A stretch of DNA of 64,000 nt, taken from positions 396,481 to 460,480 of the forward strand of contig NZ_CP046190.1 in NCBI RefSeq assembly GCF_012568445.1, read 5' to 3'. Each line of letters begins with the position of its first letter. The stretch's first letter is position 1. Position numbers and translations under genes: made by a program. Below are positions 2,063-59,146 of this stretch, one piece after another. Source of the DNA: Enterobacteriaceae endosymbiont of Donacia vulgaris. Its GTDB lineage: Bacteria > Pseudomonadota > Gammaproteobacteria > Enterobacterales > Enterobacteriaceae. A model generated the notes under the pieces. It was not told where the DNA came from and made no database searches. It saw nothing but the letters and a program-made list of their open reading frames with translations.

Positions 2063-2421
2063 TGGAGCTGGGGGGATTCGAACCCCCGTCCAAAATTACT
2101 ACACTTTCAGAACTACATGTTTAGTTTTATCTTATAAAAATTTTTTAATATAAACTGATAAAACTTAGTTTTATATTATATAGTCTAATTATTACTTTAG
2201 TATATAATTTTAAGACTAATTATATACGATCTCTTTTTTATGACCTATTTACTTTTATCAAAGAGAAAAATAATAAGAAACAGGGCTTCCTGCAGTTTTT
2301 TATGCTGCTAAAGCATATTTTTGAGTATTTGCAGCTATATTGCACGGTTTTTTTACAAGGCCTACCGTTCCTTGACATGCTCTTCAAGTTTTATAATTTT
2401 GTCAAATCCATAATCAGCCCC
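2063..2421 (-). ncRNA. ssrA: Transfer-messenger RNA (tmRNA)
   Basis: tmRNA rescues stalled ribosomes together with SmpB and tags the nascent peptide for proteolysis. On the minus strand the 5' end reads GGGGCTGATTATGGATTTGA and the 3' end carries the T-arm with GGGTTCGAATCCCCCC and CAGCTCC. The acceptor stem pairs seven bases, including the G3-U pair that alanyl-tRNA synthetase recognises. The discriminator A is at 2063 and no CCA follows in the DNA, so the tail must be added after processing. The length of 359 nt plus CCA matches E. coli (363). It lies 8 bp downstream of smpB, as in E. coli. Confidence 0.95.
2300..2332 (-). CDS. tmRNA tag-peptide reading frame
   Basis: Inside ssrA, the resume codon GCA (2332-2330) starts the frame ANTQKYALAA followed by TAA. 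The E. coli tag is ANDENYALAA. The terminal YALAA recognised by ClpXP and ClpAP is kept, while the acidic DEN part that helps SspB binding has become TQK. The resume codon was set by aligning the upstream UAG-containing element with the E. coli tmRNA from memory. Confidence 0.85.
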   Translation of the reverse strand, partial: ANTQKYALAA

Positions 2422-2429
2422 ATAAATTT

Positions 2430-2887
2430 TCAAATATTTTTTTTTAATAAACGTAATTTATTAATACTCCATTCTTTATTTTTTATAATATTTCTTTTGT
2501 CGTATTTTCTTTTACCTTTAACAACAGCAACTGTTAATTTACACCAGGATTTTTTCCAAAAAAGACCAATAACTACAGCAGTAAAACCTTTTAAATTTAT
2601 ATAATTTTTTAATAATTCTATTTCTTTTTTTTGTAATAATAATTGTTTTTTTCTATTATTATCATATTTTATATGATTACAAATTGTTTTTATAGGATTA
2701 ATATTTAAATTAAAAACATAAACTTTATTATATAAGAAACTTATATAACTATTAATAATACTAACTCTATTTAATCTTAATGATTTTACTTCCCAACCTT
2801 GTAAAACAAGACCTGCATTAATTTTTTCTTTAATAAAAAAATTATGATAAACTTTTTTATTAAAAATAATATATTTTTTTTTTCCAT
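2430..2887 (-). CDS. smpB: SsrA-binding protein SmpB, frame broken at a poly-A tract after the start codon
   Basis: SmpB binds the tRNA-like domain of tmRNA and brings it to stalled ribosomes. The frame ending with TGA at 2432-2430 encodes about 148 residues with clear SmpB segments: AGLVLQGWEVKSLR near the N-terminus, FWKKSWCKLTVAVVKGKRKY and DKR before the C-terminal tail. The only suitable ATG is at 2887-2885 and would give MEKKK followed by YIIFNKK, but a run of 10 A (2883-2874) follows, where 11 (or 8) would be needed. The ATG is therefore out of frame by one base, and no ATG, GTG or TTG occurs in frame upstream of the conserved region. Transcriptional slippage in the A tract, a non-canonical ATT start, or a true pseudogene are all possible. 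Directly upstream of ssrA and divergent from grpE, as expected after loss of the E. coli genes between them. Confidence 0.85.
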
Positions 2888-3183
2888 TATAAAAATATTT
2901 TATTATTAAATATCATTAATTATAGTATTTATATTTGATAATATCAACATATTAAATAACATATATTTTTTAAGAAAATATTTTTTTATATATTAAAATT
3001 TTATTATTTATTAAATAAATATAATATTTGATTAATTTAAAATTTATATTTTATAAAATTATTTATTTTATAATTATTTAATACATTTTTTAATATTTAT
3101 TATTATAAAAAATAATATATATTATTTATTTATAATAAGTATTTATTTTAAAATTTTATATAAAACTTATATAAGGATAATAT

Positions 3184-38274: not shown

Positions 38275-38349
38275 AAATAACTATATTTTCTATATAAAAC
38301 AATATTATTGTTTTATTTAATATATAAAAAAAATTATTTTAGACAATTT

Positions 38350-39447
38350 ATGTTAAAAAAAAAAGTTATAGTTGCAATGTCTGGTGGTATAGATTCTTCT
38401 TTTACTGCTTGGTTATTAAAAAAACAAAATTATCAAGTAGAAGGATTATTTATGAAAAATTGGGAAGAAGATGATCTAAATAATACTTGTAATTTTAAAA
38501 AAGATTTACATGATGCAGAAATTATTTGTCAAAAATTAAAAATTCGTTTACATAAAATTAATTTTTCATCTGAATATTGGGATTATGTTTTTAAAAAATT
38601 TCTTCTTGAATATAAACAGGGAAATACACCTAATCCTGATATTTTATGTAATAAAATTATTAAATTTAAATATTTTATGAATTTTGCTATTAATAACTTA
38701 GGAGCTGATTTTATCAGTACAGGTCATTATGTACGTCGTAAAAAAATAAAAAATAATTATTTTTTATTAAAAGGTATTGATTCTAATAAAGATCAAAGTT
38801 ATTTTTTATATACAATAAAAAAAAAACAATTAAAAAAAATTTTATTCCCTATAGGTGGATTAAAAAAAACAGAAGTAAGATATTTTGCAAATAAATTAAA
38901 ATTTATTAATGCTAATAAAAAAGATTCTACTGGAATTTGTTTTATAGGAGAAAAAAAATTTCCTAATTTTTTAAGTCAATATATATCTACCCTTCCAGGT
39001 AATATAGTTAATATTAATGGGGAAATTATAGGAAAACATAAAGGATTAATTCATTATACTATAGGACAAAGAAAAGGTATTGGAATTGGAGGTTCTGTTT
39101 ATTTTAAAAATAAACCATGGTATGTTTATAAAAAAAATATAAAAAAAAATATTTTAGTTACAATACAAGGTAAAAAAAATTTATATTTATATTTTATTGG
39201 ATTAATAGTAAAAGAAATTCATTGGATTAATTTTATACCAAAAAATATAAAAAAAAAATATACAGTAAAAACTAGATATAGACAGAAAGAAGTTAAATGT
39301 AAAATTATTTTTTTAAAAAAAAATAAAATTAAAGTATATTTACATAATCCTATTTCTTGTATTACAAAAGGACAATCAGCTGTATTTTACTATGGGCAAA
39401 TTTGTTTAGGAGGAGGAATTATTGAAAAAGGAATTCCATTAATTTAA
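38350..39447 (+). CDS. mnmA: tRNA-specific 2-thiouridylase MnmA (TrmU)
   Basis: MnmA makes 2-thiouridine at U34 of tRNA-Glu, Gln and Lys, using ATP and sulfur relayed by Tus proteins. I start at ATG 38350 (MLKKKVIVAMSGGIDSS), which aligns with E. coli; an upstream in-frame ATG at 38308 would add 14 hydrophobic residues with no counterpart. The 365-residue product (E. coli 368) has the PP-loop SGGIDSS, GLFMKNWEEDD, the catalytic NPDILCN and STGICFIGE cysteines, GHYVRR, GQRKGIGIGG and the terminal GQSAVFYYGQICLGGG. The potABC genes follow after 42 bp; in E. coli several genes lie between these two loci. Confidence 0.96.
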   Translation: MLKKKVIVAMSGGIDSSFTAWLLKKQNYQVEGLFMKNWEEDDLNNTCNFKKDLHDAEIICQKLKIRLHKINFSSEYWDYVFKKFLLEYKQGNTPNPDILCNKIIKFKYFMNFAINNLGADFISTGHYVRRKKIKNNYFLLKGIDSNKDQSYFLYTIKKKQLKKILFPIGGLKKTEVRYFANKLKFINANKKDSTGICFIGEKKFPNFLSQYISTLPGNIVNINGEIIGKHKGLIHYTIGQRKGIGIGGSVYFKNKPWYVYKKNIKKNILVTIQGKKNLYLYFIGLIVKEIHWINFIPKNIKKKYTVKTRYRQKEVKCKIIFLKKNKIKVYLHNPISCITKGQSAVFYYGQICLGGGIIEKGIPLI

Positions 39448-57722: not shown

Positions 57723-57862
57723 ATATATTTATTATTTTAATATTTTCATTATTATATAAAATATAACATATTAAATATCAGATGTTTTTAAAAATTTAAA
57801 TATGTATAAAATAATTTTTTATGCTAAAATTATGTAGTATATTTATATATATGGAAAGTATT

Positions 57863-59146
57863 ATGTTAGATGTAAATTTATTACGTAATAATATTAATTA
57901 TGTATATAAAATTCTAAAAAAAAGAAATTTTTATTTAGATATTAATTTAATAAATAAATTAGAACAAAAAAGAAAAATTTTTCAAGTTAAAATAGAAAAA
58001 TTACAGATTAAAAAAAACCAAATAACTAAAAATATATCTCAACACAATATTCATAATATATCTGAATATAAAGTGATAGTCATTAATATTAATAATCAAA
58101 TTTCAAAAAATAAAATTATATTAGATAATATTAAAAAAAGTATAAATAAAGTTTATAATTTAATACCAAATCTACCGTTAAATGATGTACCTATAGGAAA
58201 TAATACTAAAGAAAATAAAGAAATAAGTAAATGGGGTAAAATAATTAAACATGATTTTCCTATACGTGATCATTTAGAACTAGGTATTTTAAATAAAGGT
58301 ATTGATTTAGAAGCAGGAGTTAACTTAAGTGGATCTAAATTTTTTGTTTTAAAAGGATTAATAGCATATTTACATAGAATTTTAATTCAATTTATGTTAA
58401 ATATTCATATTAATAATCATAATTATAAGGAAATTTATGTTCCCTATATAGTAAAAAAACAAGCTTTATATGGTACTGGACAATTACCTAAATTTAGTAA
58501 AGATCTTTTTCATATAAAAAGCTTTAAGTCATCTAATATAGAAGATTATTTTTTAATTCCAACAGCAGAAGTACCTTTAACTAATTTAGTATATAATAAA
58601 ATTATTAAAGAAAAAGAATTACCAATTAAATTAGTTGCACATAGTCCTTGTTTTAGATCTGAAGTAGGTTCATATGGAAAATATAATAAAGGATTAATAC
58701 GAACACATCAATTTGATAAAGTAGAATTAGTACAATTAGTAAAACCTGAATATTCTATTAAAGCTTTAGAACAAATTACGGAAAATGCAGAAACAATATT
58801 GAAATTATTAAATTTACCATATAGAAAAGTATTATTATGTACAGGTGATATGAGTTTTTCATCAAGTAAAACTTATGATTTAGAAGTATGGTTTCCTTCA
58901 AAAAATAAATATTATGAAATTTCTTCTTGTTCTAATATGGGGGATTTTCAAGCTAGAAGAATAAAAGCGAGATATAAAAGAATTAAAGATAATAAAATTT
59001 CTTTTATACATACTTTAAATGGATCAGGATTAGCAATTGGTAGAACACTAGCAGCTATTATGGAAAATTATCAACTTAAAAACGGAGAAATTAAAATACC
59101 TAAAGTTTTAAGACCATATATGCAGGGACTAAAATATATAAGATAA
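57863..59146 (+). CDS. serS: Seryl-tRNA synthetase
   Basis: SerS charges tRNA-Ser. I start at ATG 57863 (MLDVNLLRNN), which aligns with the E. coli N-terminus and has GGAAAG just upstream; an in-frame ATG at 57821 would add 14 unmatched residues. The 427 residues (E. coli 430) have the N-terminal antiparallel coiled coil (about 25-105), the TAEVPLTNL and CFRSEVGSYG (motif 2) segments, SSCSNMGDFQARR and LNGSGLAIGRTLAAIMENYQ (motif 3). Convergent with argR, 26 bp between the stops. Confidence 0.97.
   Translation: MLDVNLLRNNINYVYKILKKRNFYLDINLINKLEQKRKIFQVKIEKLQIKKNQITKNISQHNIHNISEYKVIVININNQISKNKIILDNIKKSINKVYNLIPNLPLNDVPIGNNTKENKEISKWGKIIKHDFPIRDHLELGILNKGIDLEAGVNLSGSKFFVLKGLIAYLHRILIQFMLNIHINNHNYKEIYVPYIVKKQALYGTGQLPKFSKDLFHIKSFKSSNIEDYFLIPTAEVPLTNLVYNKIIKEKELPIKLVAHSPCFRSEVGSYGKYNKGLIRTHQFDKVELVQLVKPEYSIKALEQITENAETILKLLNLPYRKVLLCTGDMSFSSSKTYDLEVWFPSKNKYYEISSCSNMGDFQARRIKARYKRIKDNKISFIHTLNGSGLAIGRTLAAIMENYQLKNGEIKIPKVLRPYMQGLKYIR

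Follow-up and report, generated by a model that had tools for sequence, protein, structure and literature searches.

The window analysed here is a 64,000-nucleotide stretch of DNA from the Enterobacteriaceae endosymbiont of the reed beetle Donacia vulgaris, whose genome comprises a chromosome of 460,480 bases and a plasmid of 5,262 bases (465,742 bases in 2 contigs; Reis et al. 2020, PMC7289800). On its minus strand, an open frame for the SsrA-binding protein SmpB occupies positions 2430..2888 and ends with a TGA codon at 2432-2430. The translated frame is a full SmpB, scoring 153.7 bits against the NCBIfam equivalog NF003843 (cut-off 130) and 141.1 bits against Pfam, and its best match to solved SmpB chains has an E value of 2.4e-40. 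Similarity to solved SmpB begins at residue 7 (about position 2870). These matches bear out the original prediction that the frame is open and conserved up to its TGA. The adjoining tmRNA gene (ssrA; 2063..2421, minus), with the tag ANTQKYALAA, is located directly downstream on the same strand.

The smpB start region contains an ATG (2885..2887, minus) that does not belong to this frame. Reading along the minus strand, the order is ATGG, a run of ten A nucleotides and then TATATTATT, with the G at 2884 separating the ATG from the A10 tract (2874..2883, minus) that is the proposed site of slippage. The SmpB frame itself is read as AAT GGA AAA AAA AAA TAT ATT ATT TTT AAT AAA and so forth, with the AAT at 2888-2886. 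The ATG precedes the codon for a conserved Trp by 92 nt, and 92 mod 3 is 2, which places it one base out of register across the ten A nucleotides, as had been predicted. No ATG, GTG or TTG is present in the window's open SmpB frame at or upstream of the conserved part, and this portion of the prediction also stands. Without correction, the ORF that begins at the ATG comprises 33 codons and a stop (2786..2887, minus).

A sigma-70-like promoter match, TTGATA-17-TATAAT (2919..2947, minus), agrees with the consensus at 11 of 12 positions, and its −10 box ends 31 nt 5′ of the ATG, so the smpB transcript should carry both the ATG and the A tract. Among 16 Donacia genomes, 14 have their best promoter match (9-11 of 12 positions) ending 29-41 nt before the ATG. 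Promoter-like sites show no excess across the whole smpB upstream region, where 14 are found compared to 13.2 in shuffled sequences. There is no Shine-Dalgarno sequence before smpB, which is ordinary in this window, given that a simple motif detects one for 23 of 54 other ORFs. In addition, an A/U hairpin of 17 bp (2827..2866, minus) begins 7 nt past the tract within the 5′ coding region and is a possible stimulator of frameshifting.

The original prediction had proposed comparing tract length and frame among relatives, and this comparison reveals that the state is not peculiar to one genome. A genus search located smpB in all 24 genomes, and in 14 of these the ATG directly 5′ of the tract is out of the SmpB frame, with tracts of 9-11 A. 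Twelve of the 14 need a change of +1 or −2 and two need −1 or +2. Specifically, the arrangement ATGG-A10 with an offset of 2 is found in the symbionts of D. vulgaris, D. simplex, D. cinerea, D. fulgens, D. marginata, D. bicoloricornis, D. thalassina and D. clavipes; ATG-A11, also with an offset of 2, is found in those of D. dentata, Plateumaris braccata, P. consimilis and Neohaemonia nigricornis; and ATGG-A9 with an offset of 1 is found in those of D. sparganii and D. cincticornis. The gene is in frame in the symbionts of P. rustica, P. sericea, P. pusilla, D. piscatrix, D. crassipes, D. proxima, D. provostii, D. tomentosa and two Macroplea. In these genomes the ATG lies 90 or 93 nt before the Trp codon, with that of D. 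provostii being 3 nt more upstream than that of D. proxima.

An in-frame ATG, GTG or TTG at or upstream of residue 8 is absent in 12 of the 14 out-of-frame genomes. The exceptions are P. braccata, which has an upstream in-frame ATG, and D. dentata, which has an upstream in-frame TTG, and therefore SmpB could start otherwise in these two. Non-ATG codons further upstream were considered as general SmpB starts and rejected, because in D. sparganii and D. cincticornis the codons of the tract come immediately after an in-frame TAA, which makes such a start impossible there. On a tree built from the proteins of five neighbouring genes (2042 columns), the frame offsets require six changes when treated as three states (five when binary), compared to a mean of 9.5 when shuffled, and only 17 of 2000 shuffles required as few. 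Thus, the out-of-frame state is inherited as well as recurrent, and kinship limits the independent evidence for it to about five events. A comparison of tract lengths yields a Mann-Whitney p of 0.006 that ignores relatedness and deserves little weight. The host group is 75-100 million years old, a figure that does not apply to the out-of-frame clade itself (PMC7289800).

A wider survey covered 27 other small symbiont genomes and one genome of a Buchnera-like genus (G197, L208). Among the 23 that were parsed, smpB has an in-frame ATG in 21, only a TTG in one (G072) and no canonical start in one (G108); the remaining four, read by eye, include three with an in-frame ATG and one with GTG (G028). 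The gene of the Buchnera-like genus is in frame by reading. An out-of-frame smpB ATG was not found among these 28 other symbiont genomes. In the genome that lacks a canonical start (L173 in G108, about 600 kb), there is no in-frame ATG, GTG or TTG upstream and no ATG of any frame within 150 nt before the anchor. An AAGGA sequence is located there about 10 nt 5′ of an in-frame ATT, making an AUU start possible.

The ATG before the tract is retained in all 14 out-of-frame genomes while the flanking sequence diverges. Among eight out-of-frame Donacia symbionts, the sequence before the ATG has a tree length of 0.89 substitutions per site when 75 nt are taken, and of 1.76 when only the 31-nt leader is. 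In those eight, the probability that an unused ATG would persist, estimated as exp(-3 x length), is about 0.07 or 0.005, respectively, and the other six species would lower these values; the flank includes the UTR and promoter, so its rate is no clean neutral yardstick. Two other grounds for retention were evaluated and rejected. The uncorrected ORF is not a conserved leader peptide, as it varies from 8 to 33 residues with differing ends among the 14 genomes, and the ATG is thus not kept for the sake of this peptide. Nor does the ATG appear to be kept merely as part of a TATAAT box (TTTATAATGG), as the promoter match already lies 31 nt upstream. Moreover, D. simplex alters this box and retains the ATG, and P. 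braccata, P. consimilis and N. nigricornis carry an out-of-frame ATG with no TATAAT.

Because a start at the ATG and the conserved downstream frame disagree, a correction at or near the tract would be required if this codon is used. We consider it probable that translation does start at the ATG and that the A run is where the frame is put right, mainly through slippage of RNA polymerase rather than of the ribosome. RNA polymerase would initiate upstream of the ATG and the tract and would slip on the latter, generating a fraction of transcripts with a corrected number of A nucleotides. Ribosomes would initiate at the conserved ATG and, with the frame restored inside the A9-A11 tract, the corrected transcripts would yield full-length SmpB, with the others producing only the short peptides of 8-33 residues. 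Polymerase slippage would fit best because all 14 tracts have 9-11 A and both offsets occur (12 and 2 genomes), and slippage in either direction can serve both. It is likely the most economical mechanism on the sequences compared here. A run of 9-11 A is the length range where the RNA-DNA hybrid consists entirely of A:T pairs. In keeping with other slippage-rescued genes, the break falls in an A/T run of at least 9 and the downstream frame is under purifying selection. Poly(A) slippage yields 12-50% corrected transcripts of frameshifted genes in two symbionts (PMC5009743). Work on Buchnera found that insertions of one base prevail in A/T runs, increasing exponentially as the run lengthens to as many as 11, but observed no restored frame (PMC5574713).

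The original prediction had offered two sources of SmpB, namely slipped transcripts or a rare ATT start, and the latter is the weaker of the two. Under the second proposal, SmpB would start at an in-frame AUU just past the tract, at the first or second Ile of the core, and the frame of the ATG would be irrelevant. Every one of the 14 out-of-frame genomes has one or more ATT codons at −3 or −2 relative to the Asn-Lys-Lys motif, and homology to solved SmpB begins at these codons. However, ATT codons are frequent at such a base composition, and no position is common to all 14, with codon −3 being TTT in D. thalassina and D. cincticornis and codon −2 being GTT in D. dentata and N. nigricornis. There is precedent for such a start, as infC of the window's genome (L209, G000:C1 around 96870-97079) appears from its sequence to begin at ATT, as in E. 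coli, and smpB of the unrelated symbiont L173 has no canonical start. The infC codon is aligned with the known start and has the Shine-Dalgarno sequence AGAGG upstream, whereas the smpB ATT codons have neither a Shine-Dalgarno sequence nor a common position, and in the window they are directly preceded by the tract and TAT. Furthermore, an AUU start would leave the ATG with no need to be retained. We therefore regard initiation at AUU as unlikely.

A mechanism that the original prediction did not name is −1 ribosomal frameshifting, in which ribosomes would start at the ATG and shift at A AAA AAA, with the hairpin that follows 7 nt later as an aid. Read in the zero frame, the sequence after the ATG is GAA AAA AAA and thus contains this slippery heptamer, and a −1 shift has the direction required in 12 of the 14 out-of-frame genomes. 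The hairpin, which is strong in the main out-of-frame Donacia clade, has a predicted minimum free energy of −15.1 kcal/mol (z −2.6) for its 17 bp, and a C-G pair replaces a U-A pair within the stem in D. bicoloricornis. Only 0.3% of synonymous shuffles fold as well in this species, and 2% do so in D. sparganii. In the other six of the eight main-clade species the proportion is 11-14%, and therefore the hairpin seems to be driven largely by the protein sequence; because an earlier Asn-Lys-Lys served as their anchor, the two Macroplea rows of this comparison cannot be set beside the others. The hairpin is also absent in the out-of-frame D. clavipes and D. dentata, and the shift required in D. 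sparganii and D. cincticornis is the reverse one. Consequently, ribosomal frameshifting is a rather poor candidate for the main route, and slippage by the polymerase is preferred.

The smpB genes of all 14 out-of-frame genomes are free of stops and match in one frame over their full length or nearly so. The dN/dS values, obtained by the Nei-Gojobori method from 17 hand-chosen pairs that are not independent, are 0.12-0.45 for 10 out-of-frame pairs, 0.08-0.38 for six in-frame pairs and 0.15 for one mixed pair, and are similar to those for typA and priA. In neutral simulations (400 runs per distance), stops arise quickly: a sequence that has diverged by 0.05 substitutions per site escapes them with a probability of 0.12, which falls to 0.0025 at a distance of 0.10. 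By contrast, the nrdA and nrdB genes of the P. rustica symbiont (L143) give fragmentary matches with 36-38% identity, carry 16 and 13 stops, respectively, in the best match and appear to be decayed. As far as these comparisons reveal, smpB in the out-of-frame genomes is under ordinary purifying selection, with neither the relaxed constraint nor the further lesions expected of a pseudogene.

The wider context of ribosome rescue points the same way. A tmRNA gene is found in the window and in all 23 relatives, and ArfA was found in none of the 24 genus genomes. ArfB was not found in the window's own genome, the one genome searched, where the only two RF-1-domain proteins are read as RF1 and RF2. 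Trans-translation is generally essential where backup systems are absent, and SmpB is probably needed here because no known backup was seen. With regard to RF2, the prfB gene of the same genome (L187, G000:C1 around 199200-199526, minus) seems to have kept its programmed +1 frameshift, with AGGGGG followed by CTT TAA, where E. coli has TGA in place of TAA. A UAA at the shift site could also be read by RF1, which would alter autoregulation.

That smpB is instead decaying in the out-of-frame lineages has some precedent, as frameshifts in this gene have been noted in two Buchnera strains, and it has been argued that some reduced genomes lost the system (Hudson et al., PMC4131195). The absence of stops, the near full-length matches in all 14 genomes, dN/dS values like those of intact neighbours, persistence across the clade, retention of tmRNA, and the lack of ArfA in 24 genomes and of ArfB in the window's genome all make decay very unlikely. 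The original judgement that rescue is likelier than decay is thereby strengthened, and a functional SmpB that is rescued rather than decaying is well supported by the comparative data.

The out-of-frame start is also specific to smpB in this sample. We tested 56 window ORFs, which were defined mechanically and are not all proven genes, for an in-frame start no later than residue 12; 53 of these have a match in a relative. The sample comprised 700 tests and extended over roughly 60 kb in 10 of the relatives and over 20 kb in the remaining 13; it included 56 tests of the window against itself, which are trivial except for smpB. Seven pairs with an unaligned N-terminus and 21 running off the stretch were set aside. 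An in-frame start is lacking in relatives in 11 of 23 tests of smpB, compared to 18 of 621 tests of other ORFs. These 18 failures come from three ORFs: 14 involve the window ORFs beginning at 38308 and 57821, for which the first start lies too far upstream, and four involve grpE, whose N-terminus is variable or N-masked. Likewise, mapping the ORFs of seven relatives onto the window revealed no window gene split between frames.

For the two flagged ORFs (38308-39447 and 57821-59146), the mechanical starts lie about 14 codons too early; the window has an ATG at 38350 and 57863, and the flagged relatives have one at about residue 15 (23 in one). The symbiont of D. piscatrix (L144) lacks tblastn matches for grpE, rpmB and rpmG, which are present in the 23 others, and masking is the likely cause because this stretch holds 1317 N.

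Long A runs are common in these genomes without such an effect. In 17 other genes of the same 20-kb stretches, 458 runs of 9-16 A are in frame, in 352 gene-genome pairs without an inner stop. A run was counted only when a single-frame alignment extended over 10 or more residues on either side of it; a looser count without aligned flanks gives 540. The 352 pairs remain from 359 after removal of seven, including five with alignments that extend past the gene's own stop plus nrdA and nrdB of P. rustica. Runs near gene starts are also in frame, as in rpmG (A9-A10), nrdB (A11-A12) and rpsP (A10). Because the same genomes hold 458 long A runs in frame, out-of-frame tracts are evidently not kept as a rule. 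Homopolymers are error-prone and the tract lengths are those of the assemblies, but an assembly or sequencing error is hardly credible when 14 genomes agree in a tree-like pattern, the same assemblies keep these 458 runs in frame and the source-study genomes are all Illumina assemblies except that of M. mutica (PMC7289800). In other words, both decay and assembly error are disfavoured because of the clade-wide conservation, the retained tmRNA, the lack of any other affected gene and the in-frame runs elsewhere.

Slippage alone leaves unexplained why smpB differs from other genes with A runs. One doubtful possibility is that the out-of-frame start is a maintained device and not an accident that is merely tolerated, whereby SmpB output is set by the slippage rate and serves as a dosage limiter or as a sensor of expression errors. 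If so, rescue capacity would be tied to the expression error rate, and this would explain why smpB, unlike the other tested ORFs, has repeatedly entered and kept this state.

If polymerase slippage does restore the frame, the cell relies on expression errors to make the factor that clears stalled ribosomes. The genus offers a natural experiment, with one gene, one tract and 24 related genomes in both frame states, and public RNA-seq data (ENA PRJEB73718) cover the symbionts of two out-of-frame species, D. marginata and D. thalassina, and of M. mutica as an in-frame control, in addition to that of D. versicolorea. Such an experiment can reveal whether a gene that is likely essential is upheld for long periods by errors of expression, and whether apparent breaks at homopolymers in tiny genomes truly inactivate the genes concerned. 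Our search of the open-licence literature found nothing on slippage in the symbionts of Donaciinae or on transcriptional slippage of this kind in smpB, and the main text of the reed-beetle symbiont genome and transcriptome papers is silent on slippage, frameshifts and SmpB. Slippage rescue in symbionts is already known, whereas a repeated, clade-wide out-of-frame smpB start appears to be new within that literature.

The closest parallel is the poly(A) slippage rescue in Buchnera and Blochmannia, for which the primary paper is reportedly that of Tamas and colleagues from 2008. As described for those symbionts (PMC5009743), a conserved gene of an AT-rich insect endosymbiont is broken at a long A run and corrected by polymerase slippage, the mechanism proposed here. 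In contrast to those cases, the break in smpB lies directly after the start codon, extends over many species with at least five state changes and affects a ribosome-rescue gene. The smpB frameshifts of Buchnera BCc and TLW03 (Hudson et al. 2014, PMC4131195) resemble ours in involving a single frameshift in the same gene of a reduced symbiont. Unlike the reed-beetle genes, they are discussed as inactivation or possible sequencing error, and neither their position and tract nor any clade-wide persistence is described in the sections of that paper available to us (PMC4131195). A third comparison is with programmed transcriptional slippage, as in dnaX and IS elements, and with −1 ribosomal frameshifting at A AAA AAA, where the slip site is likewise an A run and both frames are possible. 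Programmed events of these kinds make two useful products. For smpB, in contrast, only the corrected product looks conserved, and the uncorrected ORF encodes just 8-33 amino acids.
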